A stretch of 64,000 nt of DNA, taken from contig NC_089314.1 in NCBI RefSeq assembly GCF_036669915.1, positions 4,043,120 to 4,107,119 of the forward strand, given 5' to 3'. Numbering within the stretch: the first letter of the stretch is position 1; each line of letters opens with the position of its first letter. This stretch comes from Pocillopora verrucosa (lineage: Eukaryota; Cnidaria; Anthozoa; Scleractinia; Pocilloporidae). The notes below the pieces were generated by a model that ran no database searches, was not told the DNA's origin, and was given only the letters and a program-made list of their open reading frames with translations. Position numbers and translations under genes: made by a program. Below, piece after piece: positions 6,535 to 64,000 of the stretch.

Positions 6535-9500
6535 ATGGCTTTTTTCTATTTATCTGCTAATTTTCTTGCTCTGGTTGTATTGGCGAGTTCTGTGAAGACT
6601 TCAAAAGGTATTTTCCTTCCGTTGCAGTGATACTCGCGTTCTTTTTGCTCTATTTTTGCTGATCTCTACGTCGTGTATTTAACAAAGTATGAGCCAAAAC
6701 CGTTTTAATTGGTCGTCTTCATTTCTTTTTTGAACACAGGACAAACGCCAAACGTCGGGTTTGTCTTCACCAATTTTCTTGCTCACGAAGGCTACCATTT
6801 AAACGTTACAACTGTTGGTACAGAACTGGTCCAAGACTCCTGTGAGTGCGCGTTCAAGTGTCTGGAGAAGGATCCATGTTTGTCCTTCAACCTGGCAGAT
6901 TTGGATGATAACATGGACAATCTGCTATGTGAACTGCTTCCATTTGACCATTACACCCATTCAGACAAGTTCATCACCAACCATCTTTGGTATCACTACA
7001 GTATTGCGGTAAAAAAATTTTTCTTTTTCTACTTTATCTTTATCATCATTTTTTTCTTATTATTTCATTCTGATAATAGCTACAACCAGTTGAAATCATT
7101 TGAGCAAATTTTATTCAACTTTTCAACGTTAATACATCTCTCGTCGGAAGCCATTTTTAAGTCGTTTTATCGATCCGTCATCGAAGTTTGTTTAACTGGT
7201 TTTTATCAAGGGAGTAAGTAATTGATTTTCTCGGTCTTAGTCTCCTTGCTCGAAGTTGCCCTGTCAAAACAATGGAACTTGTGTACCTCTGTACCGGACA
7301 AACAGCTACAAGTGTCGCTGTACGAAACCATACACAGGAAGCCACTGCGAAAAAGGTAAAGTTTTGGTTTCTAAAACAATATTTTCAGAAATATTTCGCG
7401 CGCGTGCTTGTCATATCTGATTCCTAAAGAACCATCACTCGTCGCCATTTGACTTCACTCTGACTTATTTTTGCAAACAAAAATTTTACAATGATTATTT
7501 ACTTTCTCTATTCTTTTTACATCAGTTGATAATAACTGCAGTTGTTCATCAGGACCAGAAGGAAAACAGAGATGCAAAATAGGTCAGTTAATATCTCGCC
7601 TTCGAGTTAAGGAAATAACTTGAAATAGCTTTCCGAGACACCTATACCGGATATATATAAAAAGCCCTAAAAAGCGCCCTCCCTTTACGAAGTCAAAGGA
7701 AAGTCACACTTGTTCACAAAAAGATTAAAGTTTTAAGGCAAACGTGACCACAATTGATGCACTTATACATGGGGAAATCCCGTTACACAGTTTTTTGGGT
7801 CGATGTCGTAATATCTCCAATAGATTTTTTTCTCAACTTAAGAATTTTGTTTTTCGAGCTAGACCTCGCTGTTGAGTGAATTTCATCACATTAAACTGAG
7901 TCGTTTCAAAATCATGACTCCGTTGAGTTTACTCTTTCTCCACGTGGATCAATCTAAAATAAACGCAAGCTCCAAATCAACTTTTACTGATTATATCGCA
8001 ATAGTCTTACATCTGAAAAATTTTCAATGGGTTCTGAGCTGTTGTGTTAAATTTAAAACAGTTCCTCGTATCGATAAGAAACCGCAAACTAGCCAATTAA
8101 GAGTAATTTTCTATCATTACATCATTCATCCACTAATTTCCATTGTTTTGTTTTTTTTCGGAAGTGGCTCTACAAAATTTGTCTTAATTTTGCAATCTTG
8201 AAATACAGCACATGTACATTACATTAACTTTTTTGAAGACTCAGAGAAATAGTACCTATTTACCTACGTCGTTTCCCTGTTCAACTGGAAGATAGAAATT
8301 TGACAGCTTTTATCTTTTCCTTTTTTTCTGAGCAAAATGCCGTCAACTCTAATTTGCATAGGTCAGCATGCGTCACAGTTTCCTAACACGTTTTCGTCGG
8401 CTGAAAATGCAAATGTATGGCGGACAATGTATATACGTTTTTGACCATGACAACTGAATGTTAGCTTCGTTCTCTTTTGCCCTTTTTATGGACCTTGACA
8501 TCCTCTCGGTCAATGAAAAAAGGGAGAAAAAGAGCGAAGCGAATGTCCAGTCATCTTGACTGAACAAGCTTTGTCAATAAAGGATTTATCATTTAGCTAA
8601 CGATTTCGTTTTATTTTAAAAGAAGCAAGAATGATATTTTACTTCCAGAGCCGAGAAAGAAAGCCAACTGTGTTTGTAGCACAATAAATCCACGACAGTC
8701 GTTTATGTTTTCTTTGTTTTGTCTGTCCTCAGCTGATTTTTGCGACTCCACCGCCGGCATTATCGAAAAAAATTGCTAACTCTGTTAGTCCACTCGGGTA
8801 GCCAGTCGGATCTCAGGATTCGCTTCAGTTTCCTATTGCCCTGCTATGGAGAAAAGAAATTATCTCGGAAATGAAAATTAACTTGAAGGCATGGTCCCTG
8901 AAAAATTTTTACAATGCCAAAGAATACGTTGAAAATCTGTTAGATGAAAAGTTATTGCTACAAATTCAACAAACTTGTTTTAGAGCTCGGTTTTTGAATA
9001 ACTTCGCCTGGAAGCTGAAAATTAAGACTAATTTTGAAAGAGCTTGATTTAATTTGTTGCCTTCTTCACCCTGCGCATAAGAGAAGGTACGTTTTTTTTT
9101 CGGTGGGGGGCGGGCTGGGACCTCGTAGGGGAGGGTCATCTGTGAAAGTAAACAAAGGGAGGGTCGTACCTCTTTATAGGCTATTTAAGGGGAGGATTAC
9201 ACACCTTTTGCAGAATTTTTCTTTTTTGTGATGTTGCTTTCTATTATTCTTACAGAGTAAGTTTTTCTTTTCACTACTTCGATTTTAATTTGGTGTTTTA
9301 TTATAGGTTCTATGCTACATTTCTAGGTGTATATTATGCTATGGCACATAGTTTTTCTCAGAGGACTCTTGTCCTTTTCCATCCGTATCGAGACGTACTA
9401 GACTCAGGTATCGTTTCTTCAGCTTCTTGCTTCTGTTGACTATCCGCTGCCTGATCTCCTGAGTCATTTAGTTCTGAATAGTTACTTCTAGATTCAACAA

Positions 9501-12321
9501 AGCGCTCTACCCTGTCACTGTCACTGTCAGACTCTGACGTTGAGCAGAGGCTGGTTTAATGTTGTTTAGACTGTCGTGCACAATAGAGGTCAAAATCTTA
9601 CCGCCAGTATGTGCCTTCACCACCCTCACTTTTTCATATTTCTTTACTTGAAATGCAATATTGTGGTGATTAATATAAAGTTCAAGTTTACCTACTCTGA
9701 GGGAAGTCAACTGATCTACGTAATAGAGATCTTCTCAGTAAATATCATTGTATTCCTGTTGATTTCTGTTTGCCGCTTATCTTTTCGTATTTCAATATCA
9801 GTTAGATGCTCAATAAAATCTGCAACAAGCTTTTTTGATGTATTTTTCAGAAACCTGTTTGATTGCCTTTTTATCCCCTGCTTTGAGCTTACCCTCTTGA
9901 AACATCTGTTTTATTTGAGCTCGAGGCTGATAATCATCGGGTTTGCGGCCACTCGTAGGTGTTTTCGTACCTGGTAAGCGGTAAAAGTCGGGAAGTTTGC
10001 TATAATCGGGATAGGGTCGTGGAGTTGGTGTAGCTGGAGAATGAATTACCCAGTCTCAAAGTTTATGCTTCCATATTCAAACTTCAGCTCTAAAACACTG
10101 ACTGTTCGCATTTTCTTGTTTTAGCTTGCTCACATTCAATATCGAGATGTATTTATATTCAAACATTTTGCGTCCACAAGCGAAATTTCGTGAGGTTTCT
10201 ATGGCATAGAACATACCGTGTAGTAGTGAGGGGAGGGTCGCAATTTTGTCAGTCACCTAAAGGTGGGGGGTCAGGAGTTTTTTTTTATTAACACGCAAGG
10301 GAGGACTAACACTTCTTTTAGAAAAAAATACAAAATTTCCCAAACCCCCCCCCCCCCACTCCCAAGAAAAAAACGTACCGTCCCTAATCATGACATCTAT
10401 TCAACGATTCTTCATATTCTACATTGTCAATAATTGCATAATGGCCTTAGATATTTCATGAGGATGCAGCCCGAACCAGCTACCTTGCAAAGAAAGCGGG
10501 GCAGAGTATGAGTTACCTAGGTAGAACTGCGGGTCAGACAAAACTTGACAACAAGACGGGATGGAGTCTTATTCTATTTTGCTTACAATTGAACGCTGCA
10601 GGGCTATCGTCTCCGTTAAGCGTGCGGCATTTCTGAAGAACACCAGAAGATTTATACAAATACTGGATACTTCTGGAGTGGGAAAATTTATTAAACAAGC
10701 ACAGTTTCTCAAACAACTGTCTAAAATTTCTGCAATTCATTTCCTCTGTTCTAGAGTACCTTATGATGTTTCCCGAGCTGCGTTCTACAGAAAATTACGC
10801 CATGAAGAATCCAGCCATAGCTTCAGATCTCAGCCAGTTGTCGCTGTGTTTTTTCATCAAACTTGTTCAAGACCAAGGGGATCAGATAGTCGTCAGCTAT
10901 GCCCGTGTTCATAGCAACGACATGATTGTCGAGATTTATCCGACACGGACAGAGTTTTATGTTGGCTTCAAGATGTTCCGGTAATGCTGCATATATTTTT
11001 TTAGATGCCGCTCGGGGAATTTCTTTTTCGAGCCACAATAAGTCATGTTACAGGAAATGCTACGATTGGCTTCTTTCTAATGCTTGGAGAGAGAGAGAAA
11101 ATTGAACATACAAACAAACGAAAATCCTTGGCTTCTTTCTCTTTACTTATCATAATTTAAATACCAAATATGTTAATCTTTGACCAAAACAAATCTAGAC
11201 GTATTTTCCTTACGCTTTGCAAATAACTATTCGGGTCTTTTTTTTTTTAAATTTGATTTAGATCACTATGCTCAGTAGGGCATAATAGTCGTCTTTCCAG
11301 TGACGGGGACTCGCTTAATATGGTTCTAGCCATAAAAGTATGAGGTTTCTTAACCGACCCGGCTTTCAAAATAGTAGCTCAGATGATACTTTGATATAGC
11401 GGAGATAAAATTACCTCAGTAAGCATTTTATAAGTAGAGAGAGACGTTTTTCGTCTTGTCACGAGCGTGGGACAAAGAAAAAATTCTGAGTTCCCATGAG
11501 GAATCGAACTTCAGACCTTCGGAATCCGAATCCTTTGCTCTACCGCTGAGCCACAGAGACGCTACAATAAGCGATGACTCTATTTTATAAGTAATTGCAT
11601 GAATAAGAGATTAACTGAAAGAATGAAAACACTGAACGAATGGAAGCCTGAATGTATGAACGATTAAGTCATTGATAAAAGATTGATTGACTGATTGAAA
11701 GTTTACTGACTGTTTTATTGATTGACTTGCTAACAGGCTGACTGACAGATTGACTGACTGACAGGCTTATTATATGTTGTTATAAACTGACTGACAGACT
11801 GAACGACTCTACTGACTGACTTAGTGACAATGGAAAAGGAGGGTCTTAAATGACCAGATATTTTAATATTGTTTTTTTTCTGTTTTTTTTGTTTTGTTTT
11901 GCTTTTTGTTTTTGTTTTTATTTTTGTTTTTATTTTTTTTTTTAGTTTTACCTCGACAAATCTCTACGATGATACCTGGCAACACCTGTGTCTCACCTGG
12001 GAAAACACTCAAGGAGTAACGAAACTCTATAAAGATGGCAAATTTACCGGACAGGTAACAAATAATGCCACTAAGAGCTATACACTTAAGGCTAACGGCG
12101 CTCTGGTGCTTGGACAAGAGCAGGACTCTATTGGCGGAGGCTTTAATCGTAAGCAAACTCTTCATGGCCAACTGGCAAGTGTTAACATGTGGGATAAAGT
12201 GCTGTCCGAAAGCGACATTGCCGCTCAGTACACACATTGCAGCGTACCTCATGGTTCTGTTTTTAACTGGTCTGTATTCAAAAGTCTTACTCATGGCAAT
12301 GTCACAGTTGAAGAGCCGTGA
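6535..12321 (+). CDS. Gene A: secreted PAN-EGF-pentraxin protein, intact
   Basis: Six exons: 6,535-6,607; 6,740-7,008; 7,241-7,355; 7,526-7,582; 10,755-10,980; 11,946-12,321, all with GT/AG borders, summing to 1,116 nt (371 aa). Residues 1-24 form a signal peptide (MAFFYLSANFLALVV). Residues 25-114 are PAN/apple-like with four Cys (ECAFKC, DPC, LCELL). Residues 115-152 are EGF-like with six Cys, 153-171 a CSC linker, and 172-371 a pentraxin domain. The pentraxin part shows the Cys pair in LSLCFF and HLCLTW, the block LGQEQDSIGGGF and VNMWDKVLSESDI. Ca2+-ligand positions read S-N, E-Q-D, N and Q against CRP. There are sequons NVT, NGT, NAT and NWS. AATAAA overlaps the stop (12,321-12,326). The start was chosen because this ATG is kept in all intact copies while upstream ATGs are not. 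Function: probably a Ca2+-dependent secreted recognition or matrix protein, inferred from families. Confidence 0.88.
7583..9080. other. Intron 4 of gene A, conserved proximal block
   Basis: This block follows exon 4 in every copy (also 17,796-18,845, 21,103-21,896, 31,918-33,550, 42,326-43,990, 51,858-52,252 and 62,198-64,000). It includes a TATATATAAAAAG word (about 7,650), the AGCACAATAAA word with a possible polyadenylation signal (about 8,680) and the TTCTCAAATGCG region in longer copies. In gene A the block breaks at about 9,045-9,060 and jumps to sequence that in F lies near 45,350, so about 2 kb of intron has been deleted. ORFs inside are not spliced to anything. Confidence 0.6.
9081..10384. 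mobile_element. TIR DNA transposon remnant, TAA target duplication
   Basis: The left end GAGAAGGTACGTTTTTTTTT and the right end (reverse complement GGGACGGTACGTTTTTTTCT) are inverted repeats continuing into G-rich sequence. TAA flanks both sides (9,078-9,080 and 10,385-10,387). Paralogous introns at about 23,930, 34,955 and 56,765 carry a single TAA at this spot (GCAATAACCA), i.e. the empty site. A second copy is at 45,375-46,299. Three-base TAA duplications fit the PIF/Harbinger superfamily, but no DDE transposase is visible, so the class is tentative. It contains a 13-base C run at 10,345-10,357. Confidence 0.75.
9507..9980 (-). pseudogene. Transposon-encoded protein remnant with SAP-like segment
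   Basis: On the minus strand, codons from 9,980 downward give a basic, charged sequence: GTKTPTSGRKPDDY, then AQIKQMFQEGKLKAGDKKA, then after a one-base slip in an A run KLVADFIEHLTDIEIRKDK. A stop and frame change follow, and then LTSLRVGKLELYINHHNIAF..KKYEKVRVVKAH. The last part resembles the L.V.EL..YL..H.L...GKK..K pattern of SAP-like helices in cnidarian transposon proteins, recalled from general knowledge. It lies within the TIR element, and the same segment recurs at about 45,500-45,900. It is frame-broken, so non-functional. Confidence 0.45.
11445..11562 (-). mobile_element. tRNA-derived SINE in intron 5 of gene A
   Basis: On the minus strand the element starts GTCTCTGTGGCTCAGCGGTA (box A like, TGGCTCAGCGG) from 11,560. 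It continues to AAGTTCGATTCC (box B like, about 11,500-11,512) and ends in the tail word CTTTGTCCCACGCTCG..AAGACG. This is the layout of a tRNA-derived SINE. Orthologous copies sit at the same intron position in C, F and H, so it predates those duplications. Box A is best kept in this copy. Confidence 0.7.
11590..11945. repeat. Degenerate TGAC-type repeats and poly-T tract before exon 6
   Basis: From about 11,600 to 11,825 the intron consists of GAATGAATG, GATTGATTGACTGA and GACTGACTGACAGG words in loose tandem. It is followed at 11,868-11,945 by a T-rich tract with TTTTTG/TTTTG periodicity that runs directly into the exon 6 acceptor TTTAG. The same order occurs before exon 6 in C, E, F and H. 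The tract serves as an unusually long polypyrimidine tract. The 164-residue minus-strand ORF over it is a shadow of exon 6. Confidence 0.7.
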
Positions 12322-12872: not shown

Positions 12873-13460
12873 GAAAATCTTACTCATGGCAATGTTGCAG
12901 TTGAAGAGCCGTGAACTACATTGGTCAGTGATCAAAACTCTTGCAGAGCCTAAAATCATAATTCGCGTGATGTAAATTCCGAATATTAGTGAATGTACCA
13001 TATGCATGGCATAGTAGAAAAATATATACCAAAAATGTTAGTTAGCCAGTTATTTGTAAAATGTTTCATTCGTTTATTTATTCACCTATTTACTTAGTTT
13101 TTTGATAAAAAATATTAAGATAAGAGGTAAATTTAAGGAGACCGGTGTTTGCCATAAAGTTAACACAGCTCATGGCAATGTTGCAGTTGAAGAGCCGTGA
13201 ACTACATTGGTCAGTAATCAACTCTTACAAAGCCTAAAATCATAACTTGCGTGATGTAAATTCCTAATATTAGTGGATGTACCATATGCATGGTATAGCA
13301 CTAAAATAGATATCAAAATATGACATGATATTTCGTCGAAACGCTGCTTTTGGCCAGTTATTTGTAAAACATTTCATTTATTTATTCACCTATTTACTCA
13401 GTTGTTTGATCTAATATATCTAAGTTTTAAGGTGACCGGTGTTTGCCATAAAGTTAAGAC
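12873..13460. repeat. 286-bp tandem repeats carrying the end of exon 6
   Basis: Two tandem units begin with the last bases of the coding sequence (CATGGCAATGTTGCAGTTGA through the stop) at 12,885 and 13,171, exactly 286 bp apart. Each continues through ATATGCATGGCATAG, a TTATTCACCTATTTACT word and GGTGACCGGTGTTTGCCATA. The same 286-bp period occurs after gene C (25,715 and 26,001) and gene H (58,575 and 58,861). These are duplicated gene 3' ends, not coding. Confidence 0.75.
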
Positions 13461-13965
13461 AGTTACTTGTTTTATTGTAAGCAGCCTTAACAACATAACA
13501 CGTTTCTTCTCTGTTCTAATTCATAACACCTGAGAAGAAATTAAGAGGTCCTTTAAAGATCTTTCAAGATCCCAAAGAAATTTCAAACATTGAGAGGCTG
13601 ACAGGACGAGCGCAAATACTTTGAATGTGCGCCCATGAAAGTCTTCTAGGATGATTATCGCATGTGCCCTATTGCATATATATGATAAGTTGCGACTATG
13701 AGAAAAGCCGGCATGTCCCTAATAAGCCACCGTGTTCTACCGCTTTTTGCAACCTCTTAAAACACTCAGGGTGCTTCTGTACAGATTTCTTGGAGTCCAT
13801 ATTACTTGACATCGAAAAACATCGCATGTCCCACAAGGGCCACAGTAGAAGAAAGATATCGGTAAGTTCTTTACAAATCTGATGTATGCTTGCAGTAGTC
13901 TAGAAAATTCCAGAATAAAACTTACAGAATCTGGAAATTCTGCTGTTGACATCGTAATTTTAGAA
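13461..13965. other. Spacer after gene A, shared with genes C and H
   Basis: The sequence from GACAGTTACTTGTTTTATTG through GAGAGGCTGACAGGACGAGC recurs at about 26,300-26,480 and 59,150-59,400. No coding content was recognised. ORFs at 13,664-13,882 and 13,737-13,952 lack features. Confidence 0.5.
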
Positions 13966-15270
13966 CTAGGGTATGTGCTACAGATGGATGGGGGTGAGGG
14001 GTGGGCTATGACAAGGTTTGATGTATTAAACTGTTAGAGCGGAAGTTTAGCTGTTAGTTGGCCTACATTATCAATGTTAGCTGTTATGCAGACCCCCTAC
14101 CCCCTACCCCCTCCCCCCTTACTCCATGGTGGACCTTGCATCACATCTCTCCTGTATTGCGTTACATGAAAAGTACATTATCCAAGGCAATTAAGATGAA
14201 GAATCTTCTCATGCATGTTTTCGATGTAAATCCTCAGACTCAAGATAGAGCACTTTTCGCTTGAGTATCGTAAAAGCGTGAAAACAAACCTGTAAAAGGA
14301 AAGACTAAAAATATCCAAAATAATTCAGAGTAAAATTAGGCTTAGGGCTTCCCAAAGAACAAAAACCCACTCAGCGTTGTCTTCAAGCAACAAAGCTAGA
14401 TAAATACAATAAAGAAGAAAATTAAATAAACATACGCTCCATTATTTCTGAAATTTTCCGTGGCAGCAGAACGAGCTGAACTGGAGCTCTTCCCTACCAT
14501 TATTTATCTCCTGAATTCACACATCAAAATCTAGAGGGCGCTAAAATAATTAACAGAGACTAGGACTGAAAAAAAAGTAAATCCAGGCGCACTAGAAAAC
14601 ATCTACAGAGACTAACAAGAGCAAAACAGGAGGCCAAACGACTAAAAAGGAAGAAAAATATAGTAATTGATGAAAAGATATCGTGTCTAGTTTATCGTGT
14701 TGTAAGTTTTCTATTGCCTACCGTATCTGTTTCCTACTGAGCCATCATTTGTCGTCATTTTACTTCACACTGACTTGTTTTTCAAACAGAAATTTTTTCA
14801 TTTTAATTCATTTTCTCTTTTCTTTTTACATCAGTCGATAATGACTGCAGCTGTTCATCAGGACCAGAATGAAAACAGAGATGCAAAGTAGGTCAGTTAG
14901 TAGTCCACCTTCGAGTTAATATAGCTTGAAACAGTTTTCCGCGACACTAATCATTAAGAATGATTTTGTTTTACCTCGAGGGTCGTGTTTGTAGCACAAT
15001 AAACCCACGAGAGTCGTTTATATTCTCTTAGTTTGGTCTGTCCCCTGCCGATCTTTGCAACTCCACCGCCGGGTAGCCGATTCGCACTCAGGATTCGATT
15101 CATATTCTCCACAGGAGCTGCCAGCGATATAAAGCATGATTTCATGTATTGTATTTTGCTGTAGTCTTATCTCCTTCGATACGTGCTTAGTATGAATTAA
15201 GTAACAGAAGTTTTTTAGAACTGTCTAAAATCTCTGCAATTATTTTCTCTGTTATAGAGTAGTGTTATAG
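13966..15270 (+). pseudogene. Gene relic: broken exon 4 plus exon 5 acceptor
   Basis: This piece holds an upstream-type segment (14,450-14,700), then a full-length exon 4 copy at 14,835-14,891 whose GGA codon is now TGA (14,870-14,872), then a shortened intron-4 block (14,980-15,200). At about 15,217-15,262 come the last 45 bp of intron 4 and the exon 5 acceptor TTATAGAGTA, cut off after four exon bases and joined to intergenic sequence. Exons 1-3 and the pentraxin part are gone. The stretch 13,970-14,950 closely resembles 48,150-49,100. Confidence 0.7.
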
Positions 15271-16269
15271 ATGTATTAAACTGTCAGAGCGAAAGTTTAA
15301 CTGTTGGCTGGCCAATATTTTTAATGTTAGCTGTATGAAGACCCCCCTCCCCCTCTCTTCTCCCTCATATAGGACCTTACATTAAATCTCTTCTGTATTG
15401 TATTACCTGAAAACTGCATTTATCTAAACCAATCAGAATAAAGAATTTTTTCATGTATGTTTTCATTGCAAATCCTTAAGCTCAAGATAGAGCTTATTTC
15501 GATTGAGCATCGTAAAAGCGTGAAAACAAACCTGTAAAAGGAAAGTTAAAAAAGCGTTTAATAAAATCAGGGTAAAATCAGCTCCGTCTTCAAGCCATAA
15601 AGCTAGATAAGTAAAATAAAAATAATAATAATTATTAAATAAACAGACGCTCCATTATTTCCTGAAACTTTTCGTGACAGCAGAATTGAAACGAGCTGAT
15701 TTCAAGAACTGTAGTTCCTCTGTACCATCATTGATCTCCTGAATTTACAAATCAAAAAGTAGAGTGCTCTAAAACCATAGCAACTAGAAAAAAAAAAGAT
15801 AACGAAAACTTAGGGGCGCTAAAAAACATTTATAGAGGAAGACAAACAGAAGTTAAACAGGAGGCCAAACGCCCAATAAAGGAAAACAAAATATCAATTG
15901 ATGAAAAGATATCGTGTCATTCACTGTTCGAGCAGATGTTTGCAAATCCTGTGGAAAAGCTTTATGTTGCGTGTCTGTGGCATCGCGAGATCGTGTATCA
16001 CAATGAAAATCACTACTCTTTGAGCTTCAAGAATAAGATAGCTTTTTTTCTATTTATCTGCCAATTTTCTTGTTTGTTTGTATCGCGGTTTGTGTCCAGA
16101 CTTCAGAGGTTATCATCTTTCTTCCGTTTGCGGGAAAGACCAAAAAATGCTAAAAGAATTCAGAGTAAAATCAGTGAAAGGGCTTCCCAAATAACAATAG
16201 CCCACCGAGCGCTGTCTTCAAACAATAACGCTAGATAAGTTCGATAAAAAAGCCTTAATAAACAAACGC
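15271..16269 (+). pseudogene. Upstream block with exon 1 relic lacking ATG
   Basis: The sequence repeats the family's 5' flank twice over. At 16,038-16,110 lies an exon 1 relic in which the usual ATGGCT start is ATAGCT, followed by the diverged signal-peptide variant seen also at 27,683 and 60,546 (FFLFICQFSCLFV). It has no following exon 2. A C-rich segment at about 15,343-15,362 is also present. Confidence 0.6.
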
Positions 16270-52388: not shown

Positions 52389-55300
52389 TTGTTTTGTTAA
52401 ACACAGTTAATTTTTTTTTTCTTCATAGAAACTATTTAACCGAATATTTTTGACTTGAATGTAGCACATTGGAAATACAAGTTAGCTAGTACTTGAATCC
52501 AATGGAAAATCAAGTTTTTCAGTTCTCTGTTTATAATTTTCATTCAATGAAAACCAGTTTAACAAAACATGTTTTGCTGGTGTGAATGGGGTATTAGATG
52601 GAAGCTGTGTAGTAAAACCTGTTTGGATGCGGCCTAGCCTGAGAAACTAAGATCGAGAAATTCGACGTGAACAACGTCTGGTGTTTTGACTGTAATTTCG
52701 AAAGCTTTGTTTGCTAAGTGGATAAAGATAAAGCAGATGTAGTTTAGAAAATGGTTGTGATCTTTGAAAGTCATAAAGATTTTGTCCATGAAAGATTATG
52801 CAAATTCACGCCTGAAATTGAAGCGAATCGTAATTTGAACTTTTTGTTTACATAAGTTTGGGTGATATTTAAAAGTAAAAGTCGGTTTTCGTAAAGCGAA
52901 GACATTGTTCACTGAAGGGAAAGGTTTCTTCGCTTTCTTTTCCGATCAGGCAATGTTCGATCTCTGATCTCTCGTGGATCACAGACGCGGCGATTCCACT
53001 CCGCATTCCAGCCGTCAAAGGAAACGATCACGTAATCATCGTTTACTTCTTTAACCGTGCACACACATCAAACTCTTTCTTTCTTTCTTCATCGACTGCT
53101 TCAGCTTTGAAGCCCACAGTTTGTGAAAGCGACATCACGTTTTTATTTAACCGTGCGTTTAGCTCATGCGATCAAAACAGGTTTGCGATTGATAAAGCAG
53201 GTCAACTTGTTACTGGGATACCTGTGGTAGCCCAGTCATAAAATGCCTTTGTTTTTTTGTCGTCTTTTTTTTTTGTTTTTTGTTTTTTTCCTCCGCCACA
53301 AAATGGAAAAACTGCGCAATAGTACCCAGAGGTCATTGGGCCCTCAACACCATGACAATTAACTGTGATCCAATGAGGTGTTCACATGCTGATCACGCGT
53401 GCTATCTTGATGATCATTGACGTTGTCATGCACGGACAGGGCCGGGTCACATGACGAACACGAGATTTTTGCCCATAAACTATTTTGTCAGTCGTTTTGT
53501 ATTTCAACGTAATCGGATTACGATCATCTGGAGCATTATGGGGCAAACGCTCAAAATACTTATAGACGCATACGCAATTCGTATTGTTCGCGGCCAATCC
53601 ACACAAAAAGATGTTATTGAGCGAAAAATTTTGGATCGGACAGAATCGCGAACGCTTGAAAGCCATGAAAACATTGAATGCCTTGTATGTCTTGTATGCC
53701 AAGTATGCCAATGTCTTAGTTGAAAACGTAAACTCGTTGTAAAAAGCAAAATCTGAAATCTGAAACCAAACTGCATATACTCTATGCAATCTATTGAACA
53801 ACACTACTACCGTGAGACTGAAGAACAAAATTCAAATGGATGCAAACTGCTAGTGAAGAAACATGTCATGTTAGATTCACTTGATGCCAGGGAACGTAGC
53901 TACGATAACAATGCGAATGGTATTAATTTCACGATCAGAAAGGTGAATCTTATGTTTGTTTTCATTGTAATTGTATGGATATTCTTTTTTAATAAATACA
54001 TGATCCAAAATCCCGTGTATTTTGTGTATAATGTTATTATGTCAAGTATTGTTTACGCAATTGTCTTGTCACAGGCGACCCAAGGTCACGTTTCGAGAAA
54101 GAGCCAACGATTAATTCACGAACGCGTCACGCGTTGTGTGACTCAGAGTAAGTTATTCTAGGAACCGTTGAAACTTTGAACACGTTATAAGGAAAAGTAT
54201 AGGGAACGAAATATGGTCGATTTACAACGATAAATATTTCGAAATATGAAGATTTTTCTCGAAAAATCAATAAAACTTACTCATACCCTGTGTATCCGTT
54301 GTAGTTTCTGGCGATTGTTGCCGTTTTAAGCTTGCTTTACCATCACTATTATTCACGTCATCTACTTTTATTACATTGGTAAAATCTGTACAGACATCAC
54401 ACCAACCAACTCGCGCGCAAAGTAAGAAGACTATGTTGAAGGCTTGAAATTATATTACGATCGATTTTCATCAAGAAATGGGCCAGGAATTTTCCACAAT
54501 AGTGCAAATAATCGTGAAGGCTGATCGCGGAAAAGCGATTGCGTGACGCTCGGTAAGCTGTAAGATGACATGTTATTATATACCAGACGTAAAAACTCTT
54601 CAGATTCTCAGTCTGCACTTTGTACTCACTCTGCAGTCTATATTTTGTACCTGGTCTGCAGTCTTCTGTCTACATTTTGTACTAACAGGTATCCGTGGCA
54701 CAAATACAGTTTATTTTTGGTTACATTTATTCGCACAACACACATAATCTACCACAAAATACCTGTGTGTGAGGTAATTCGACATTTTCATTCTTTCCCG
54801 CGTTAATAATCTTCTTTCCTTTTGTAAGAATGTAGACCACTTACAATGTTTCAAGTAATCCACCCACCCTACAAAAAATAACTCTTGTAATAAATAACTC
54901 TAATGTTTTGAGACAGGTGTATGCCCTTAGCCAGACTTGAGCTCACTATTTCAGTATACTAGTCCGACACGCGTAGTATCACTACACTTGATTCCACGGA
55001 TCCAGTACCATCCAGGTATCCCAGTTACCCTGCTCACAGGGTCTAGTTTTGATGAATCTGCAATCGGTCGCTAGGATACTTAGTGGTGTCCTGTGTCCCT
55101 ATGTAATTCTAGCGCCTCATTGCGCATGTGTCGATTTAGACCGGAATTCTTAATAAATTACACACCGTGTTGAAGTCGTAATGAAACCCACGTCAGTCGT
55201 TTAGGTTTTCTTTTTTTGTCTTTCCTCTAACGATTTTTGCGACTCCGCCGCCGGCATTGTCTAAAAATTGCTGACTCTGTTAGTCCGCTCGGGTAGCTAA

Positions 55301-58300
55301 TGCCAACGATGGATTCGCTTTATATTGTCCTCGGGCGCTGCCAATGATTTAACGATATTTCCCCATAACATACGCATATCAGCAGTAATTGACATGACAC
55401 CCGCTACTTCAAATTTTAAATATTGGTGAACACAAGTGCGAAATTTGTTCGACTGCGAAGAGGGAAATTTTCTTTTGAGCGCTATGAATGCAGTCGGTAG
55501 GTGTCTAGAAAAACCGAAGACCTTCTTTTCGGATGAAACTGAATTTACCGATACCGACAGAGCCAGCACAGCGGTCATAAGTCGTGCATGTGCCGTGCGC
55601 GTGCCAATCTCTCACTCAAAGGCCAAAAAGAATACATAACAAACCATCGCTAACAAGCAAAATATGAAGAAAAGCTCAGTGAAACTGTTATAGAAATATG
55701 TAAAAAGATACAAGAGTAGGGGGGAAAAAATCTCAAGATTTTTCGAACCCAAACTTATTTAATCATGGAAAAGGGTGTGAGTTTCAGAAGATACTGTGTT
55801 GCTGCGTCGCTGGGAGAGTATAACAAGGTAATTTGGTATTGTCAACGCGGTTCTTCAGTTCGTGGGGCTGAATCGTTCTCGCAACTTCCATCTCTTCTTT
55901 ACTAGTAGAGTACGATGTATCAAAACTCTCGGTAGAGCTTGCTGACGGTAGGTATACATCGCTATCGGACATTGTTTCAAGAATATTTCAACGTTGACCG
56001 ATACAAAATTACAAGAGATGTGAGAGATTTGTAAGTGTCAACGGAGCCGGTTTTTACAGTTTTCTACGTCATCACCCGCTAATTCGTTACCAGTCCACGG
56101 GACACTTTTAAGACAAAATAAGAGCTCTTTAGGGCTCGAAAAAATCAAGTTTTAAGTTTTTTGCCGATAAGTAGCAACAGAAGAGTCCAAAAAAGGTCTG
56201 TATAAACATGCCAGGCGCTGTAATTGACATTATTATAACGTGAAAATCCTCAAAGAGGAAACGAAGTGAACTCTCCGACTTTTGATGGTTTTCACGTAAG
56301 CTTACGTACGGTAATAAATATCAAACACATCTAACACACGTATAGTATATAAAGTTTTGTGTTCACAAAGTTTCTACAGTTTCTTCTTCAAAGAAGTGGG
56401 GAGAAACACTCCTCTAATTCTCGTGTATCTCCCTACTCTTCTTTCCTGTTCTATCCACTTCCTCCGTGCGTTACAACAGTATGGAGCATAGTCCAGGCCT
56501 TTCTATTTGTTAATTAGTATGGCTATCGGATAATTACAGAGATGTGTAACTTACTCACAAGCATTCTTTATAGCGAATGAGGTAAAAAAGTGGTGGTTTA
56601 GTGACGAAGGCAGAAAGTAGACACAAACGCGCGCGCTCGTACACACGCACACACTTGGCTGCACCCAAACACAAAAGAGGTGAATGGGCTAAGAGACGCG
56701 TCCGACTTTCTATTCACGAGTGAATGATAACTTCGTCTTTTGACTTCTTTAACCTATGCAATAACCATGACGTGTAGACGATCTTCATATTCTACATTCT
56801 TAATTACATTATGGCCTTAGATAGTTGATGAGAGCGCGCCCGAACCAGCTACTTTGCAAAGAAACCGGGGGCAAATTACAAGTTACCTGGGTAGAACTGC
56901 GGATCATTCAAAGCTTGGCAACAAGACGGGATTGAGTCTTATTCTATGTTGCCTACAAATGAACACTGTGTGGCATTCTTGAAGAACGCTAGAACATTTA
57001 TACAAATAGTGTATACTTCTAAATAGGAAAATTTAATTAAAGAAAGCGCAGTTGCTCAAACAACTGTCTAAAAATTTTTGCAAATCATTTCCTCTGTTGT
57101 AGAGTACCTTATGGTGTTTCCGGAGCTGCGTTCTACAGAAAATTACGCCATGAAGAATCCAGCCATAACTTCAGATCTCAGCCAGTTGTCGTTGTGTTTT
57201 TTAATCAAACTTGTTCAAGACCAAGGGAAGCAGAATGTCGTCAGCTATGCCAGTAAACATAACAATGAGATTACTTTCGAAATTTATCCAACATTAACAC
57301 GATTTTATGTTGGCGGCAAAGACTTCAGGTAATGCTGCGTATATTTTTTAGAAGTCAGTTGAAGAATTTCTTATTCGAGCCACAATAAGTTATTATACAG
57401 GAAATACTACGATCGACTTCTTCCTAACGCTTGGAGAGAGAAAGTTAAACATACAAACAAACGGAAAGCGTTAAGCTTCTTTCCCTTTTCTTATCATGAT
57501 TTAAATACCAAATATGTTAATCTTTTACCGAAACAAATCTAGACGTATTTTCCTGTTGCGTTGCAAATAACTATTCGGGTCCTTTTTTAAAATATGATTT
57601 AGATCACTCTGCTCAATAGGGCTCAATAGTCGTCTTTAAAGTGACGAGGACTCGCTTATTACGGTTTTAGCCATAAAAGGACGAGGTTTCTTAACCGACT
57701 CGGCTTTCAAAATAGTAGCTCAGATGATACTTTGACTTAAACATTTTATAAGAAGAGAAAGATGTTTTTCGTCTTGTCACGAGCGTGGGACAAAAAGAAA
57801 TTCTGAGTTCCCATGAGGAATCGAACCTCAGTCCTTCCGATTCCGCGCGCTGAGCCACAGAGATTCTACAGTGAGTGAGGTCTCTATTTTATAAATAATT
57901 GCATAAATAAGAGATTGCCTGAATGAATGAAAACACTGAACGAATCGAAGCTTGAATGTATGAATGATTAAGTCATTGATAAACGATTGATTGACTGACT
58001 GACAAGCCACTTACATATTCCTATAAACTGACTGACTACAGACTAACAGACTGGATAACTCTATTGACCAACTTAGTGACAATGAAAAAGGAGGTTCTTG
58101 AATGATCAAATATATATTTAATGCTGTATGCTTTTTGTTTTTTTTCGTTTCGTTTTGTTTTGTTTTGTTTTGTTTTGCTTTGTTTTGTTTTGTTTTGTTT
58201 CGTTTATTGCTTTGTTTTGTTTCAGGTTTACTTCGATAAATCTCTACGATGATAACACCTGGCAACACCTGTGTCTCACCTGGGAAAACACTCAAGGAGT

Positions 58301-58604
58301 AACAAAACTCTACAAAGATGGCCAATTTACCGGACAGGTAACGAATGATGCCACTAAGAATTATGTACTAAAGGCTGGCGGCGCTCTGGTGCTTGGACAA
58401 GAGCAAGACTCTGTCGGCGGACGCTTCAATCCTAACCAAACTCTTCATGGCCGATTGGCAAGTGTCAACATGTGGGATAAAGTTCTGCCCGAAAGCGACA
58501 TTGCCGCTCAGTACACAAATTGCAGCGTACCTCATGGTTCTGTTATTGACTGGTCTGTATTCAAAAATCTTACTCATGGCAATGTTAGATTTGAAGAGCC
58601 GTGA
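50827..58604 (+). CDS. Gene H: secreted PAN-EGF-pentraxin protein, intact
   Basis: Exons 50,827-50,899; 51,008-51,276; 51,514-51,628; 51,801-51,857; 57,103-57,328; 58,226-58,604 give 1,119 nt and 372 aa, GT/AG throughout. Signal peptide MAFFFLSANLLALVV, PAN with ECAFKC and DLC, EGF with six Cys ending HCEN, linker DNDCSC, pentraxin from EYLMVFPELRSTENY. The pentraxin has one extra residue (YDDNTWQHLCLTW). The Ca2+ pocket equivalents are N-N in HNNEI, E-Q-D in LGQEQDSVGGRF, then N and Q. The extra Arg in GGRF is unique here. Intron 4 is enlarged by a 2.9-kb TIR insertion and lacks the Harbinger-like element (empty TAA site near 56,765). The (TTTTG)n tract before exon 6 is very regular. Confidence 0.87.
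52314..52334. repeat. Near-perfect 21-bp palindrome with TGACGTA arms
   Basis: The sequence CGTGACGTATTATACGTCAC plus G is palindromic except at its centre. Each arm carries TGACGTA/TACGTCA, resembling a CREB/ATF-type half site. It lies 60 bp inside the left end of the insertion and could belong to its subterminal region. Confidence 0.45.
52350..52595. mobile_element. Foldback MITE nested in the insertion
   Basis: Inverted ends TATGCCCCATTCACACCA and (complement of right end) ATACCCCATTCACACCA flank about 245 bp, with matching inner words AAACATGTTT and TTTGTTAAAC. This is typical of short non-autonomous foldback elements. No coding sequence. Confidence 0.6.
53784..54161 (+). CDS. Uncharacterised ORF, two hydrophobic segments
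   Basis: A 125-residue ORF inside the TIR insertion. Residues about 54-72 (VNLMFVFIVIVWIFFF) and 77-96 (PVYFVYNVIMSSIVYAIVL) are hydrophobic, flanked by charged N- and C-termini. I recognise no family. An upstream ORF at 53,451-53,723 (+) has an extended charged stretch and ends in CLVCLVCQVCQ, produced by a TGTATGCC-type repeat. Both could be remnants of a transposon gene or chance. Minus-strand ORFs over them (53,382-53,828; 53,504-53,776) are shadows. Confidence 0.15.
   Translation: MQSIEQHYYRETEEQNSNGCKLLVKKHVMLDSLDARERSYDNNANGINFTIRKVNLMFVFIVIVWIFFFNKYMIQNPVYFVYNVIMSSIVYAIVLSQATQGHVSRKSQRLIHERVTRCVTQSKLF
54609..54683. repeat. Short tandem repeat of a TCTGCANTTTGTAC word
   Basis: Imperfect units such as AGTCTGCACTTTGTACT, AGTCTATATTTTGTACC and TGTCTACATTTTGTACT follow each other at irregular spacing, with CTCTGCAGTC between. 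It produces small spurious ORFs. It lies in the 2.9-kb insertion. Confidence 0.5.
55184..57102. other. Rest of intron 4 of gene H
   Basis: After the insertion the intron-4 block resumes, with a deletion at about 55,345 and the segment shared with 33,130-33,550. The hairpin MITE is represented only by its first bases at about 55,833 and is interrupted by unrelated sequence to about 56,150. The shortened dispersed module (about 56,160-56,400), a CA-rich stretch near 56,620-56,660 and the distal block to exon 5 follow. Confidence 0.5.
55838..55972 (-). CDS. Possible first-exon fragment of an unknown protein
   Basis: On the minus strand an ORF starts MSDSDVYLPSASSTESFDTS and continues with a Ser/Glu-rich stretch to EEMEVARTIQPHELKN. 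It then runs into the hairpin MITE end. The acidic, Ser-rich start followed by a VARTIQP-type motif resembles N-termini of proteins carried by cnidarian transposons, as far as I recall. It is unique in the window and sits where the hairpin MITE is disrupted. No continuing exon was found. Confidence 0.25.
57762..57868 (-). mobile_element. tRNA-derived SINE in intron 5 of gene H
   Basis: Orthologue of the SINE at 11,445. Box B complement GAATCGAACCTCAG is well kept. Box A is shortened as in C (CGCGCGCTGAGCCACAG). Confidence 0.65.
58128..58225. repeat. (TTTTG)n tract before exon 6 of H
   Basis: A regular TTTTG pentanucleotide array with a few TTTCG and TTTGC interruptions ends in the acceptor TTTCAG. 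It is both microsatellite and polypyrimidine tract. It creates the repetitive N-terminus of a plus-strand ORF that is otherwise exon 6. Confidence 0.7.
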
Positions 58605-59440
58605 ACTACATTGGTCAGTGATCAAAACTCTTGTAGAGCCTAAAATCATAAATCGCTTGACGTGAATTCCTAATATTAGTGAATATACCATATGCATGGC
58701 ATAGTACTAAAATAGACACCAAAGCTGTTAGTTAGCCAGTTATTTGGAAAATATTTCATTCATTTATTTATTCACCTATTTACTTAGTTTTTTGATAAAA
58801 TATATTAAAATAAGAGGTAAATTTTAGGTGACCGGTGTTTGCCATAAAGTTGACACAGCTCATGGCAATGTTGCAGTTGAAGAGCCGTGAACTACATTGG
58901 TCAGTAATCAACTCTTACAAAGCCTAAAATTATGGCGATGTAAATTCCCAATATTAGTGAATGTACCATATGCATGACATAGTACTAAAATATATACAAA
59001 AATATGAGAAGATATTTCGTTGAAACGCTGCTTTTGGCCAATTATTTGGAAAACATGTCATTTGTTTATTCACCTATTTACTCAGTTGTTTGATGAAACA
59101 TATTTAAATAAGACATAAATTTTTAGGTGACCGGTGTTTGCCATAAAGTTAAGACAGTTACTTGTTTTATTGTAAGCAGCCTTAACAACATAAAACTTTT
59201 CTTCTCTGTTCTAATTCACTCATGACACTTGAGAAGAAGCTTCGAGGGCATTTCAAGATCTTTCAAGATCCCAAAGAAATTTCAAACATTGAGAGGCTGA
59301 CAGGACGAGCGCTAATGCTTTGAATGTGCGCCTATGAAAGTCTTCTAGAATGGTAATCGCATATGCCCTGTCGCATATGATAAGTTGCGATTATGAAAAA
59401 AGCCCGCATGTCCTTAATAAGCCACTGTGTTCTACCGCTA
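58575..59440. repeat. 286-bp 3'-end tandem duplication after gene H
   Basis: The coding end CATGGCAATGTTAGATTTGA is followed by the 3' flank, and after 286 bp a second unit starts CATGGCAATGTTGCAGTTGA (58,861) with stop and flank. The second unit matches the ancestral coding end better than gene H itself does, since H has AGATTT where others have GCAGTT. From about 59,150 the spacer shared with A and C follows. Confidence 0.7.
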
Positions 59441-61164
59441 GAACTAAATAATAAATCCAGGGGCACTAGAAAACATATACAAAGGAAGACAAATAGGAGT
59501 AAATCAGGACGCCAAACCCCCCGAAAAAGGAAAACGAAATAATCATTGATGGCAAGATATGCCTTAAACAGAAGCAGATATCTGCAAAGCCCATGTAAAA
59601 GCTTAGTGTTGCATGTCTGTGGCATTACGAAATCGTGTATCACCATGAAAGTCATTTCTCTTTGAGCTAAAAGAATAAGACGGCTTTTTTCTATTTATCT
59701 GTCACTTTTCTTACTCCGGTTGTATGGGCGAGTTGTGTGAAGACTTCAAAAGGTATCATCTTTCTTCCATTGCAGTGATACTCGCGTTTCCTTTTGCTTT
59801 ATTTTCCTGATATCTACCAAGTATTATTTCAAAAGTGTAAGCCAGTTCTAGACTAGTTCTTTGAAAACATTTCATCCATTTATTCACCTTTTTACTCAGT
59901 AAAATGCTTGCAGTAGTCTAGCAAATTCCAGAGTAAAATTACAAGAATCTGGAAATTCTGCTATTGACATCGTAATCTTAGAACTGGGGAATATGCTATA
60001 AATAGGGGCGAGGGGGGGAGGGCTATGACATGGTTTGATGTATTGTATTAAAGGAAAGTTAAAAAATTGCTAAAAGAAATAAAAAAAAAAAAAAACTCAC
60101 CCAGCGCTGTCTGCAAGCAATAAAGCTAGATAAGCACAAAAAAATTAAATAAACAGATGCTCCATTATTTCCTGAAACTTTCCGTAACAGCAGAATTGGA
60201 ACGAGCTGATTTCAATAGCTGAAACTCTTCTGTACCATTATTTATCTCCTTAATTTACAAACAAAAAGTAGAGCGCTCTAAAACCATAGCAACTGGGAAA
60301 AAGAAAGATAGAGAAACCCAGGGGCACCAGAAAACACTTACAGAGGAAGACAAACAAGAGCAAAACAGGAAACCAAACTCCCGAAAAAGAAAAACAAAAT
60401 AATAATTGATGACAAGCTATCGTGTCACTAACTGTTCAAGCAGATGTTTACAAAGCCCATGAAAAAGCTTAATGTTGCGTGTCTGTGGCATTGCGAAATC
60501 GTTTATCACTATGAAAATCACTTATCTTCGAGCTTCAAGAATAAGATGGCTTTTTCCTATTTATCTGCCAATTTTCTTCTTTGTTTGTTTGTATCGGCGA
60601 GTTGTTTGCAGACTTCAAAGGTTATCACATTTCTTCCCTTGCAGGAAAGACCTGTCATGTTGGAGCACTTTTCGATTGAGCAAAGTGCCAAAGAATTCAG
60701 AGTAAGAACAGGTTAAGAGCTTCCCAAATAACAAAAACCCACCAATTGCTGTCTTCAAACAATAAAGCTAGATAACTACAATAAAAAAAACTGTAATAAA
60801 CAGACTGAAACTTTCCGTGACAGCAGAATTAAAACGAGCTCAACTAGAGCTCTACTGGTCCATTATTTTTCTCCTGAATTTACACATCAAAAGCTAGAGC
60901 GCTAATTGAATTAACAGCAACTAGAAAGAAAAAAAAAACCCAGGGGCGCTAGAAAACACTTGCAGAGGAAGACAAACAGGAGCAAATCAGGAGGCCAAAC
61001 GCCTGAAAAAGAAAACAAATTAATAACTGATGACAAGATATCGTGTCATTAACCGAAGCAGTTGTTTGCAAAGCCCATTTAAAACGCTTAGTGTTGCGTA
61101 TCTGTAGCATTACGAAATCGTGTATCACTATGAAAAGCTTTTTTCTTTGAGCTACAAGAATAAG
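59441..61164 (+). pseudogene. Upstream region of gene I with two exon 1 relics
   Basis: Relic one (59,680-59,752) has ACG in place of ATG. Relic two (60,546-60,620) keeps ATG and an open signal-peptide variant (MAFSYLSANFLLCLFV..LQTSK) with a GT donor, but no exon 2 of its own follows before gene I starts. The part from about 59,945 is nearly identical to 18,850-20,070. Relic two could act as an alternative first exon: its donor lies three bases into the codon pattern, so the phase differs from normal exon 1. Confidence 0.55.
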
Positions 61165-64000
61165 ATGGCTTCTTTCTATTTATCTGTTAACTTTCTTGCT
61201 CTGGTTGTATCGGCGAGTTCTGTGAAGACTTCAAAAGGTGTTGTCTTTCTTCCTTTTCGTTTTATTTATCACTGATATCTACATCGTCTTTTTGAGAAAG
61301 TCGAAACCATTTTAAATGGTAATTTTCATTTCTTTATAAAAACACAGGACAAATGCCAAACGTTGGGTTTGTCTTCACCAATTTCCTTGCTCACAAAGGC
61401 TACTATTTGAACGTTACAACTATTGGTACAGAACTGGTCCAAGACTCCTTTGAGTGCGTGTTCAAGTGTCTGGAGAAGGATTCATGTTTGTCCTTCAACC
61501 TGGCAGATTTGGATGATAACATTGACAATCTGCTATGTGAACTGCTTCCATCTGACCATTACACCCATTCAGACAAGTTCATCACCAACCATCTTTGGTA
61601 TCATCACAGTATTGCGGTAAAATTATTTTCCTTTTTCTACCTTATCTTTATCATCACGTTTTTTGTTATTACTATTTTTTCATCCTAATAATAACTAAAA
61701 TCGGTTGCAATCGTTTGAGCAAACTTTATTCAAGTGTTCAACGTTAATATGTCTCTCGTCGGAAGCCATTTTTAAGTCGTTTTATCGATCCGTTATCGAA
61801 GTTTGTTTAACTGGATTTTATCAAGGGAGTAAGTAATTAATTTTATCGGTTTTAGTCTCCTTGCTCGAAGCAGCCTTGTCAAAACAATGGAACTTGTGTA
61901 CCCCTGTACCGGACAAACAGGTACAAGTGTCGCTGTACGAAAGCATACACAGGAAGCCACTGCGAAAAAGGTAAAGTTCTGTTTTCTAAAACAATAATTC
62001 CAAAATTTTTTCGCGCGCGTGCTTGTCGTATCTGGTTCCCACTGAGCCATCATCCGTCGCCATTTTACTTCACACTGACTTGTTTTTGCAAACAGAAGTT
62101 TTCCCATTTTAATTCATTTTCTCTATTCTTTTTACATCAGTTGATAATGACTGCAGCTGTTCATCAGGACCAGAAGGAAAACAGAGATGCAAAATAGGTC
62201 AGTTAGTACTCCACCTTGAATTAAGATAGCTTGAAACAGTTCTCCGACACACCTATACCGGAAGCGCTAGAAAAGCGACTTTCCCTTTACGAAGTCCAAC
62301 GAAATTCACACCTGTTCACAATATGTTTAAAGTTTGAAGTAATGGGTGTTTCAAGGCAACCACAATTGATATGCTAATACATGGGGAAATCCCGTTGCAC
62401 AGCTTTTTGTGTCGATCTCGTAAAATCTTCCATAGACTTAAGAAGTTTTCTTTTTGAGCTAGACCTCGCTGTTGAGTGAATCTCATCACATTAAATTCAG
62501 CCGTTTAAAAATCATGACTCCGTCGAATTAACCCTTTACAATAAAAGCAAGCTCCAAATCAAGTTTTACTTAATATATCACAATAATCTTACATCTCACA
62601 AATTTTCAATGGGATCGGAGCTATTGTGTTAAATTTAAACCATTTCCTCGTATCGACAAGAAACCACAAACTAGCCAATTAAGAGTACTTTTTTATCATT
62701 ACATCTATTGTTCACTAATTTACATGGTTTTGTTCTGTTTTGTTTCGGAAATGGTTCTATAAAATTTGTCCTAATTTTGCTTTCTCGAAATGCAGACGTG
62801 TCCATTACATCCGAATCAAGAATGACTTTTTTACTTCGAGAGCCGAGAAAGAAGGCCAACTGTGTTTGTAGCACAATAAACCCACGACAGTCGTTTATGT
62901 TTTCTTTGTTTTGTCTGTCCTCTAACGATTTTTGCGACTCCACCGCCGGCAGTTTCCAATAATTGCAAACTCTGTCAGTTCTCTCGGGTAGTCAATTCGG
63001 ACACAGGATTCGCTTCATATTGACCACGGGCACTGCCAGCGATATAACACATGATTTCATGTATTGTAGTTTTATCTCCTTCGTTAGGCGCTTAGTGCGA
63101 ATTAAGTAACAGAAGTTTGTTATTATCCTACTATGGTGAATTAGCAATTATCTCGGAAGTGAAAATTCGATTGGACGGTATGGTTTGAAAAATTTTTACA
63201 ATAGCTCAGAACACGTTGAAAATTCCTCAGTTGAAACGTTATTGCGACAAATTCAATGAACTTGATTTAGAGCTCGGTATATGAATAATTTCGCGTAGAA
63301 GCTGAAAAATTAAGAGTCATTTTAGAAGGGCTTGATTTCATTTCTTGATATATTTTCTCAAATGCGATCATGTAGCCCAAAAAAGCATTTTCCTGAGCTT
63401 GAGGAAAAAAATCTATCGAAGATCAACCTAAAAACCTCTTTCGCGGTATTTCCCCATAACATACGCATGTCAATAATGATTGCCATGACACCCGCTACTT
63501 TAAACTTTAAACCGTTGGTGAACACATGTGTGAAATTCGTTCGACTGCGAAAAGGGAAATTCTGTTTTGAGCGCTATGAATGCAGTCGGTAGGTGTCTAG
63601 GAAAACCGTAGACCTTCCACTCGGATGAAACTGAATTTGCCTATGCTGACAGAGCCAGCACGGCAGTCATAAGCAGTGCATGCGCAAGGGATCAGTTTTT
63701 GCCGGGTGCGAGTCAATTTCCCACGCAAAGGCCAAAAGGAACACATAAAAAACAATCGCTGACGCGCACAATATGCGGAAAAGCTTAGTGAAACTGCCAT
63801 AGAAATCTATAGAAAGATACAAAAGTGGGGAAGAGAGAAACTCAAGACTTTTTCGAACACAAAAAAATTATCTAATCATGGAAAAGGGGGAAGTTTCTAA
63901 AGAGACTGTGGAGCTACGTCGCTGGGAGAGTACAACAGGGTAATTTGGTATTATCAACTGAGTTGATAACGTAAACTGGCCGACCGATAAGAGTTTCAAA
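61165..64000 (+). CDS. Gene I: PAN-EGF-pentraxin gene, 5' part only
   Basis: Exons 61,165-61,237; 61,348-61,616; 61,856-61,970 and 62,141-62,197 are intact (signal, PAN, EGF, linker). Exons 5-6 are expected beyond the window. Exons 1 and 2 are nearly identical to gene C at a constant offset of 41,094 bases, down to the GQMPNV start and the DSCLSF change. Exon 3 ends HCEK as in A, D and E, and the following intron resembles E (ACCGGAAGCGCTA). The copy is therefore recombinant, with a switch between about 61,700 and 61,860. The EGF loop is slightly different here (SKQPC, TNRYKC). Intron 4 runs to the window end and includes the proximal block and the start of the hairpin MITE. Confidence 0.8.
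63945..64000. repeat. Hairpin MITE, cut by the window end
   Basis: Starts TTGGTATTATCAACTGAGTT and continues GGCCGACCGATAAGAGTTTC. It is the left arm of the element described at 33,559 and 44,006, in the same intron-4 position. Confidence 0.6.

Follow-up and report, generated by a model that had tools for sequence, protein, structure and literature searches.

What a tandem family of coral pentraxin genes is for, and whether the differences between its members were selected or are simply what duplication and gene conversion leave behind, is the question raised by a stretch of the Pocillopora verrucosa genome (assembly GCF_036669915.1, contig NC_089314.1, positions 4,043,120 to 4,107,119 of the forward strand; 64,000 nucleotides (nt), hereafter the window). 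From position 6535 to the end of the window, copies of one six-exon gene lie head to tail on the + strand. The reading that we favour, with moderate confidence, is that they form a small germline set of secreted pentraxins in which selection and the exchange of exons have diversified the ligand face, the PAN-EGF part being steadier. The array comprises four complete genes (A, B, C and E), one broken gene (D), one gene cut by the window end (F), and two 5' modules (A2 and B2) lacking a working pentraxin half:

6535-12321, + strand: gene A, complete, 371 aa; exons 6535-6607, 6740-7008, 7241-7355, 7526-7582, 10755-10980, 11946-12321; Pentaxin E 4e-32, EGF E 2.7e-7.
16759-17795, + strand: module A2; intact signal 16759-16831, PAN 16940-17208, EGF 17453-17567 and linker 17739-17795; without pentraxin exons of its own.
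20071-25744, + strand: gene B, complete, 371 aa; exons 20071-20143, 20254-20522, 20761-20875, 21046-21102, 24272-24497, 25369-25744; Pentaxin E 8.6e-31.
28183-29011, + strand: module B2; intact signal 28183-28255, PAN 28368-28630 and EGF 28897-29011; no linker found by blastn with the gene E exons.
30867-36674, + strand: gene C, complete, 369 aa; exons 30867-30939, 31048-31310, 31577-31691, 31861-31917, 35309-35534, 36299-36674; Pentaxin E 2.7e-32.
41264-48134, + strand: gene D, broken; reading frame disrupted in the signal, PAN and EGF exons, but intact in the linker (42269-42325) and in both pentraxin exons (46672-46897 and 47759-48134).
50827-58604, + strand: gene E, complete, 372 aa; exons 50827-50899, 51008-51276, 51514-51628, 51801-51857, 57103-57328, 58226-58604; Pentaxin E 2.6e-32.
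61165-62197, + strand: gene F, cut off by the window end after its fourth exon; signal 61165-61237, PAN 61348-61616, EGF 61856-61970, linker 62141-62197.

The initial annotation had claimed four complete open genes and one more cut by the window, and both claims stand: genes A, B, C and E are each open from ATG to stop, and F has four exons before the end. Its count of nine copies or modules was correct in that the tandem modules are real and too low in number, there being eight PAN-EGF modules and, besides these, orphan pieces of linker, signal and pentraxin exons. Intron phases are 1,0,1,1,2 in all four complete genes, and the exon sizes are 73 nt (signal), 263-269 nt (PAN), 115 nt (EGF), 57 nt (linker), 226 nt (pentraxin exon 1) and 376-379 nt (pentraxin exon 2). 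The linker, described earlier as Cys-rich, does encode three Cys, all in that single 57-nt exon. Exon junctions were placed with patterns requiring GT and AG, so GT/AG at the junctions is partly by construction; the actual finding is that sites of this type occur at corresponding places in each copy and preserve the frame of the open ones.

The proposed order of signal, PAN/apple, EGF, linker and pentraxin was borne out by the exon models and by Pfam, profile searches of the predicted proteins being one of the checks that had been suggested for this locus. The Pentaxin profile (PF00354) matched all four complete proteins at 107.6-112.6 bits against a cut-off of 25 (E 2.6e-32 to 8.6e-31), and EGF was likewise above its Pfam cut-off in all four. 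Matches to PAN_1 in whole proteins were below the cut-off (18.0-18.8 bits in three of the four, none in gene A). When the PAN exons were scanned alone, PAN_1 was matched in all seven intact exons with an E limit of 1 (lowest value 7.2e-6); a score was reported for one of them, 23.5 against a gathering cut-off of 21.4. A profile of the seven PAN exons found no match among solved structures at E up to 1, and an AlphaFold model of the PAN exon, built on the alignment of the seven copies, had a mean predicted local distance difference test score of 39.7 and was not used. The pentraxin half is as unmistakable as had been claimed: besides the profile matches, both Cys of the Cys36-Cys97 pair are present in all five copies and the LGQEQD block is recognizable, and the solved structures nearest to this half of gene A are neuronal pentraxin-1 (E 2.2e-21) and human C-reactive protein (CRP; E 4.8e-21). 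No relatives of the five pentraxin exon 2 copies were found in the viral and prokaryote genome contigs scanned, as expected for an animal gene. Since a hydropathy scan found no second membrane-like stretch past the signal peptide (the 19-residue average peaks at residue 2 and is at most 1.33 beyond residue 30), the proteins are likely to be secreted. The four mature proteins contain 16 or 17 Cys and 5-8 N-glycosylation sequons.

The evidence for selection comes from one part of one exon. Pooled ratios of nonsynonymous to synonymous change (dN/dS, Nei-Gojobori) were lowest in the linker (0.23) and EGF (0.25), followed by pentraxin exon 2 (0.45), PAN (0.60), the signal exon (0.71) and pentraxin exon 1 (0.78), with the B/E pair at 2.39 in exon 1. 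Within exon 1, omega was 1.36 in codons 42-74 and 0.34 in codons 1-41, a split chosen by eye, and nonsynonymous change was denser in the later part in nine of ten pairs (p below 0.001), the exception being A/D. A 99-nt density scan, which needs no preset split of the exon, placed the densest B/E differences among 1583 aligned columns (permutation p 0.003) here:

24398-24496, + strand: variable part of pentraxin exon 1, gene B.

For A/D, the densest stretch fell in an intron (p 0.013). A tRNA-Pro (cgg) gene at 11488-11560 on the - strand, within the last intron of gene A, is overlapped by that stretch. Comparison of the codon models M1a and M2a for pentraxin exon 1, with D included, gave twice the log-likelihood difference (2dlnL) as 23.3 (p 9e-6), a value reached by none of 200 simulations under the M1a null (largest 17.6). 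For exon 2 the corresponding value was 7.2 (p 0.028), and for both exons joined 29.8 (p 3e-7). Without pseudogene D, exon 1 gave 25.9 to 37.3 on all three trees. When the two parts of exon 1 were analysed separately, codons 1-41 alone gave 0 and codons 42-74 alone 13.9.

The sites with a posterior above 0.5 in the joint model align with CRP positions 50, 56, 57, 59, 72, 74, 79 and 81 in exon 1 and 120, 126, 132, 147, 148, 149 and 167 in exon 2. Two further sites have no CRP partner. Exon 2 run alone gave only two sites. At a posterior of at least 0.9, five of eight mappable sites were no more than 2 residues from a CRP ligand residue, compared with 33 of 185 positions overall (p 0.005). By sequence alignment, then, the selected sites appear to lie near the calcium/phosphocholine pocket of CRP. 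The idea of a fast-evolving recognition system, a guess when it was put forward, has thereby gained some evidence, in that a selection signal is seen only where the pentraxin domain lines up with the ligand pocket of CRP.

For the ligands of the two calcium ions of CRP, which we take to be D60, N61, E138, Q139, D140, E147 and Q150 (the numbering itself was checked), Q139 and D140 are kept in all five copies, position 138 is E in four and D in one, and Q150 is found in four of the five. Position 147 is N, H, H, D and N over the five copies, and N, H, H and N in the four open genes. Asn61 is N in all five copies in the multi-copy alignment, where D60 falls in a gap; in the ungapped alignment of gene A, the residues opposite D60 and N61 are N and D. 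Because Gln139 and Asp140 are fixed and an Asn stands at or next to the Asn61 position, part of the calcium site seems to have been kept while the rim changes. The earlier description as Ca2+-type lectins may not extend to a full calcium site, Gln139 and Asp140 being kept and the Glu147 position varying. The pentraxin signature of PROSITE, presumably H-x-C-x-[ST]-W-x-[ST], is not matched by the HLCLTWEN of the four open genes, the last position being N. The phosphocholine pocket of CRP is formed by Phe66, Thr76 and Glu81 (PMC6503050). As these residues are not kept in the array (position 66 is V, F, V, V and F, or I for gene A in a separate structure-search alignment; position 76 is Y in all five; position 81 is M, P, L, M and D), the proteins would probably not bind phosphocholine in the way that CRP does.

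The array was also described as tandem and recombining, and this is supported. Chance is excluded by the 172 same-strand self-matches of at least 250 nt that the window as a whole contains at E 1e-20, of which a few have one side beyond 6535-64000. In the self-comparison, the nearest relative shifts along the gene: the 5' half of B is closest to F (94.3 % over 2449 nt) and its 3' half to E (90.0 % over 3122 nt), other nearest matches being A2 to E (90.2 %), B2 to C (94.0 %) and the pentraxin region of A to that of D (88.2 %). In the codon tree of pentraxin exon 1, A pairs with D and B with E; in that of exon 2, B pairs with D and A, though narrowly, with C. Each exon rejects the best tree of the other (p 0.0006 and 0.04). 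Hence, the modules recombine, and duplication and exon-scale exchange have both acted. An artefact of assembling two haplotypes was considered and ruled out, as the 5' introns differ by about 3 to 21 % with indels and a given copy is closest to different copies in different parts of the gene. Directly before pentraxin exon 2, all five copies have a T-rich or TTTTG-type tract (11869-11949, 25295-25364, 36249-36302, 47687-47755 and 58133-58222); since the pentraxin exons on either side of that intron have conflicting trees, the tract might be a recombination spot.

Such exchange could itself have produced the variable stretch. Under neutral birth and death with gene conversion, the stretch would be an old patchwork spread by short tracts, with no selection for diversity, and the many relics, the broken copy, the conflicting exon trees and the residues that E shares with C, and B with A, within the stretch are all in keeping with this. 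In codons 42-74 genes B and E differ by 15 changes in 80 nonsynonymous sites, compared with 38 in 695 sites of the flanking introns and 2 in 45 synonymous sites, and because conversion should bring synonymous and intron changes along, this pattern speaks against it. The excess also holds on the trees tried, including a star tree. An excess over the flanking introns at p below 0.05, uncorrected, was seen in four of the ten pairs (B/E, C/E, B/C and A/E), and the other six, with no significant excess, fit the neutral explanation as well. We consider that explanation improbable.

Several points nevertheless weigh against diversification of the ligand face by selection, the six pairs just mentioned among them. 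The signal in exon 2 is lost without pseudogene D (p 0.2 to 0.47), and selection on that exon, which depends on D, is not claimed. The tests rest on five pentraxin sequences and on a codon-model script written for this analysis, and small gene-conversion tracts could inflate the signal. The sites were placed by MAFFT alignment with CRP, so that proximity to the pocket is proximity in a sequence alignment, and neighbouring sites are non-independent. Over eight combinations of threshold and distance p ranged from 0.002 to 0.33, and there was no significant enrichment exactly at the ligand residues (p 0.16 and 0.33). Finally, the calcium site appears incomplete, position 147 being changed and Asn61 depending on where a gap is placed.

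EGF gave no selection signal (p 0.86, seven copies), and PAN is not tightly constrained, its overall omega being 1.18, so that "constant stalk" is a description that fits EGF and linker more than PAN. Selection on PAN is not claimed, as the test across seven copies gave p 0.067 and reflects mainly one site, residue 59, which is C, F, S or L depending on the copy (posterior 0.99). Gene A owes its odd number of Cys to this residue.

The proteins might instead be structural parts of the extracellular matrix, mucus, attachment disc or skeleton, with the copies serving as dosage or tissue variants. PAN and EGF domains are frequent in matrix proteins. The Polydom matrix protein of Nematostella combines pentraxin with PAN/Apple (PMC12549020), a neuronal pentraxin-2 is up in the pedal disc of Exaiptasia (PMC6626399), and pentraxin-domain proteins rise during coral metamorphosis, an increase that has been connected with matrix remodelling, calcification and immunity by those who described it (PMC12960093). 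A matrix role, however, does not lead one to expect that EGF and linker remain similar between copies and that change gathers in the half-exon aligned to the ligand pocket, an argument tempered by the loose constraint on PAN itself. We regard a matrix or adhesion role as unlikely, while taking it seriously.

The favoured reading can also be taken further. When compared with gene E, module A2 differs at 17 of 514 exon sites and 47 of 515 intron sites with no exon indel, much like the whole-gene pair B and F (15 of 514 and 48 of 512), whereas exon and intron divergence are equal between B2 and C (13 of 451 and 12 of 372). Because its exons are less diverged than its introns, as in whole-gene pairs, A2 may be functional to this day, or the loss of its pentraxin half may be recent. 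On a bolder view, which we hold only tentatively and think rather doubtful, the array is a germline repertoire in constant/variable style, with a steady PAN-EGF-linker stalk, a variable pentraxin face, and recombination that pairs pentraxin exon 1 of one copy with exon 2 of another. Orphan intact 5' modules such as A2 may in that case be spliced onto the exons of a neighbour, which is possible because phase 1 is shared by the end of the linker and by the starts of both PAN and pentraxin exon 1.

Pentraxins are usually viewed as conserved pattern-recognition proteins with fixed ligands. If selection and exon exchange have indeed diversified the ligand face, the likely use, by analogy, is recognition of microbes, algae or damaged cells. 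The secreted proteins would assemble through the pentraxin domain into rings or disulphide-linked oligomers, the variable face would bind surface ligands of such targets, and the steadier PAN-EGF part would attach them to partner proteins, mucus or the host matrix. Ligand preference would differ from gene to gene, and new preferences would come about as genes duplicate, copies swap exons and selection acts on the rim of the pocket. A rival use would be the sorting of symbionts, the diversified pocket reading surface glycans of symbiotic algae and not of pathogens; a neuronal pentraxin-2 is listed as down-regulated in symbiotic Exaiptasia (PMC6554683). This use seems to us very improbable.

The initial annotation also noted several relics, and broken gene D, decayed pentraxin pieces and orphan exon copies were all found. 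A search by blastn with the gene E exons returned 13 signal, eight PAN, eight EGF and nine linker pieces, five copies and one fragment of pentraxin exon 1, and five copies and six fragments of exon 2. The pentraxin remnants include:

29052-29896, + strand: degraded pentraxin sequence following B2, from exon 1 (29052-29231) and exon 2 (29705-29896).
12874-12914 and 13169-13200, + strand: short copies covering the final 41 nt and the final 32 nt of pentraxin exon 2, inside a direct repeat of about 286 nt.

The following were also placed by that search:

26521-26628, + strand: orphan end of pentraxin exon 2.
49647-49835, + strand: orphan end of pentraxin exon 2.
58859-58890, + strand: short copy of the end of pentraxin exon 2.
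14837-14891, + strand: orphan linker exon copy.
48970-49016, + strand: orphan linker exon copy.
16030-16105, + strand: extra signal exon copy, decayed.
19445-19526, + strand: extra signal exon copy upstream of gene B.
27675-27754, + strand: extra signal exon copy upstream of B2.
59672-59754 and 60538-60619, + strand: extra signal exon copies upstream of F.

The direct repeat of about 286 nt occurs as two units each at 12883-13462, 25713-26304 and 58573-59157, at the 3' end of, or downstream from, genes A, B and E. Five of the six units have their start at the last bases of pentraxin exon 2 or slightly past the point where these begin. An inverted repeat (40692-41012 and 44640-44953; 321 nt, 76 %) flanks the 5' part of broken gene D. 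Ten other open reading frames were compared with Pfam without a match at E 0.01. Broken frames at 140-1745 and 22242-23155 give the impression of mobile-element remnants, and those tested had no match at this threshold.

Among known systems, vertebrate CRP, SAP, PTX3 and the neuronal pentraxins share with the array the fold family, the Cys36-Cys97 pair and the LGQEQD block, though the phosphocholine residues of CRP are not kept in the array copies, and to our knowledge none of these proteins has a PAN or EGF domain. Neuronal pentraxin has an N-terminal coiled coil and no PAN or EGF, whereas the N-terminal half of the array proteins is PAN-EGF-linker. The C-reactive proteins of Limulus are, unlike the array proteins, short pentraxins (218 residues), and we know of no PAN or EGF domain in them. 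They resemble the array in coming from three homologous genes with products that are identical in N- and C-terminal stretches and differ in between (PMC6503050). The cnidarian Polydom/SVEP1 protein, like those of the array, is secreted and combines pentraxin with PAN/Apple (PMC12549020), but it is large, has its pentraxin domain before PAN, and carries vWFA, Sushi, HYR and CUB domains, extra domains that the array proteins do not have; vWFA, Sushi and HYR were absent from their Pfam matches at E up to 1.

Closest to hand are the coral and anemone genes named "neuronal pentraxin-like" (PMC10662330, PMC8590396, PMC3247206, PMC3722494), which resemble the array in a pentraxin domain nearest to neuronal pentraxin-1 and CRP. 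In Montipora, a neuronal pentraxin is among the four annotated of 16 ortholog pairs with a ratio of nonsynonymous to synonymous substitution (Ka/Ks) above 1 (PMC10662330), and two neuronal pentraxin-like genes rise under heat stress (PMC8590396). One such gene falls in sea fans exposed to a parasite (PMC3722494), and in Acropora palmata neuronal pentraxin-1 is entered with 6 in a table of paralogs. The available parts of the published descriptions give no PAN-EGF architecture, array or map of selected sites for these genes. The array as such would be ordinary in a coral, because about 30 % of the genes in two coral genomes are tandem duplicates (PMC10236652); the words "pentraxin" and "pentaxin" do not occur in the main text of that paper. 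No description of the PAN-EGF-pentraxin architecture as an array was found in the accessible parts of the open-licence PubMed Central literature, which does not by itself show that it is unpublished; such an array, with its changes mapped to the ligand face, is new to us.

The tachylectin-2 and C1q-domain families have folds unrelated to that of pentraxin. They are nevertheless comparable as recognition proteins, positive selection having been reported for tachylectin-2, a coral lectin (PMC2880987), and tandem expansion for the C1q-domain genes of bivalves (PMC6835236). As the selected residues in the array can be named, a bench test of the claim is possible. If it is true, invertebrate pentraxins carried on a PAN-EGF stalk would be diversifying near the ligand pocket much as other recognition lectins do.

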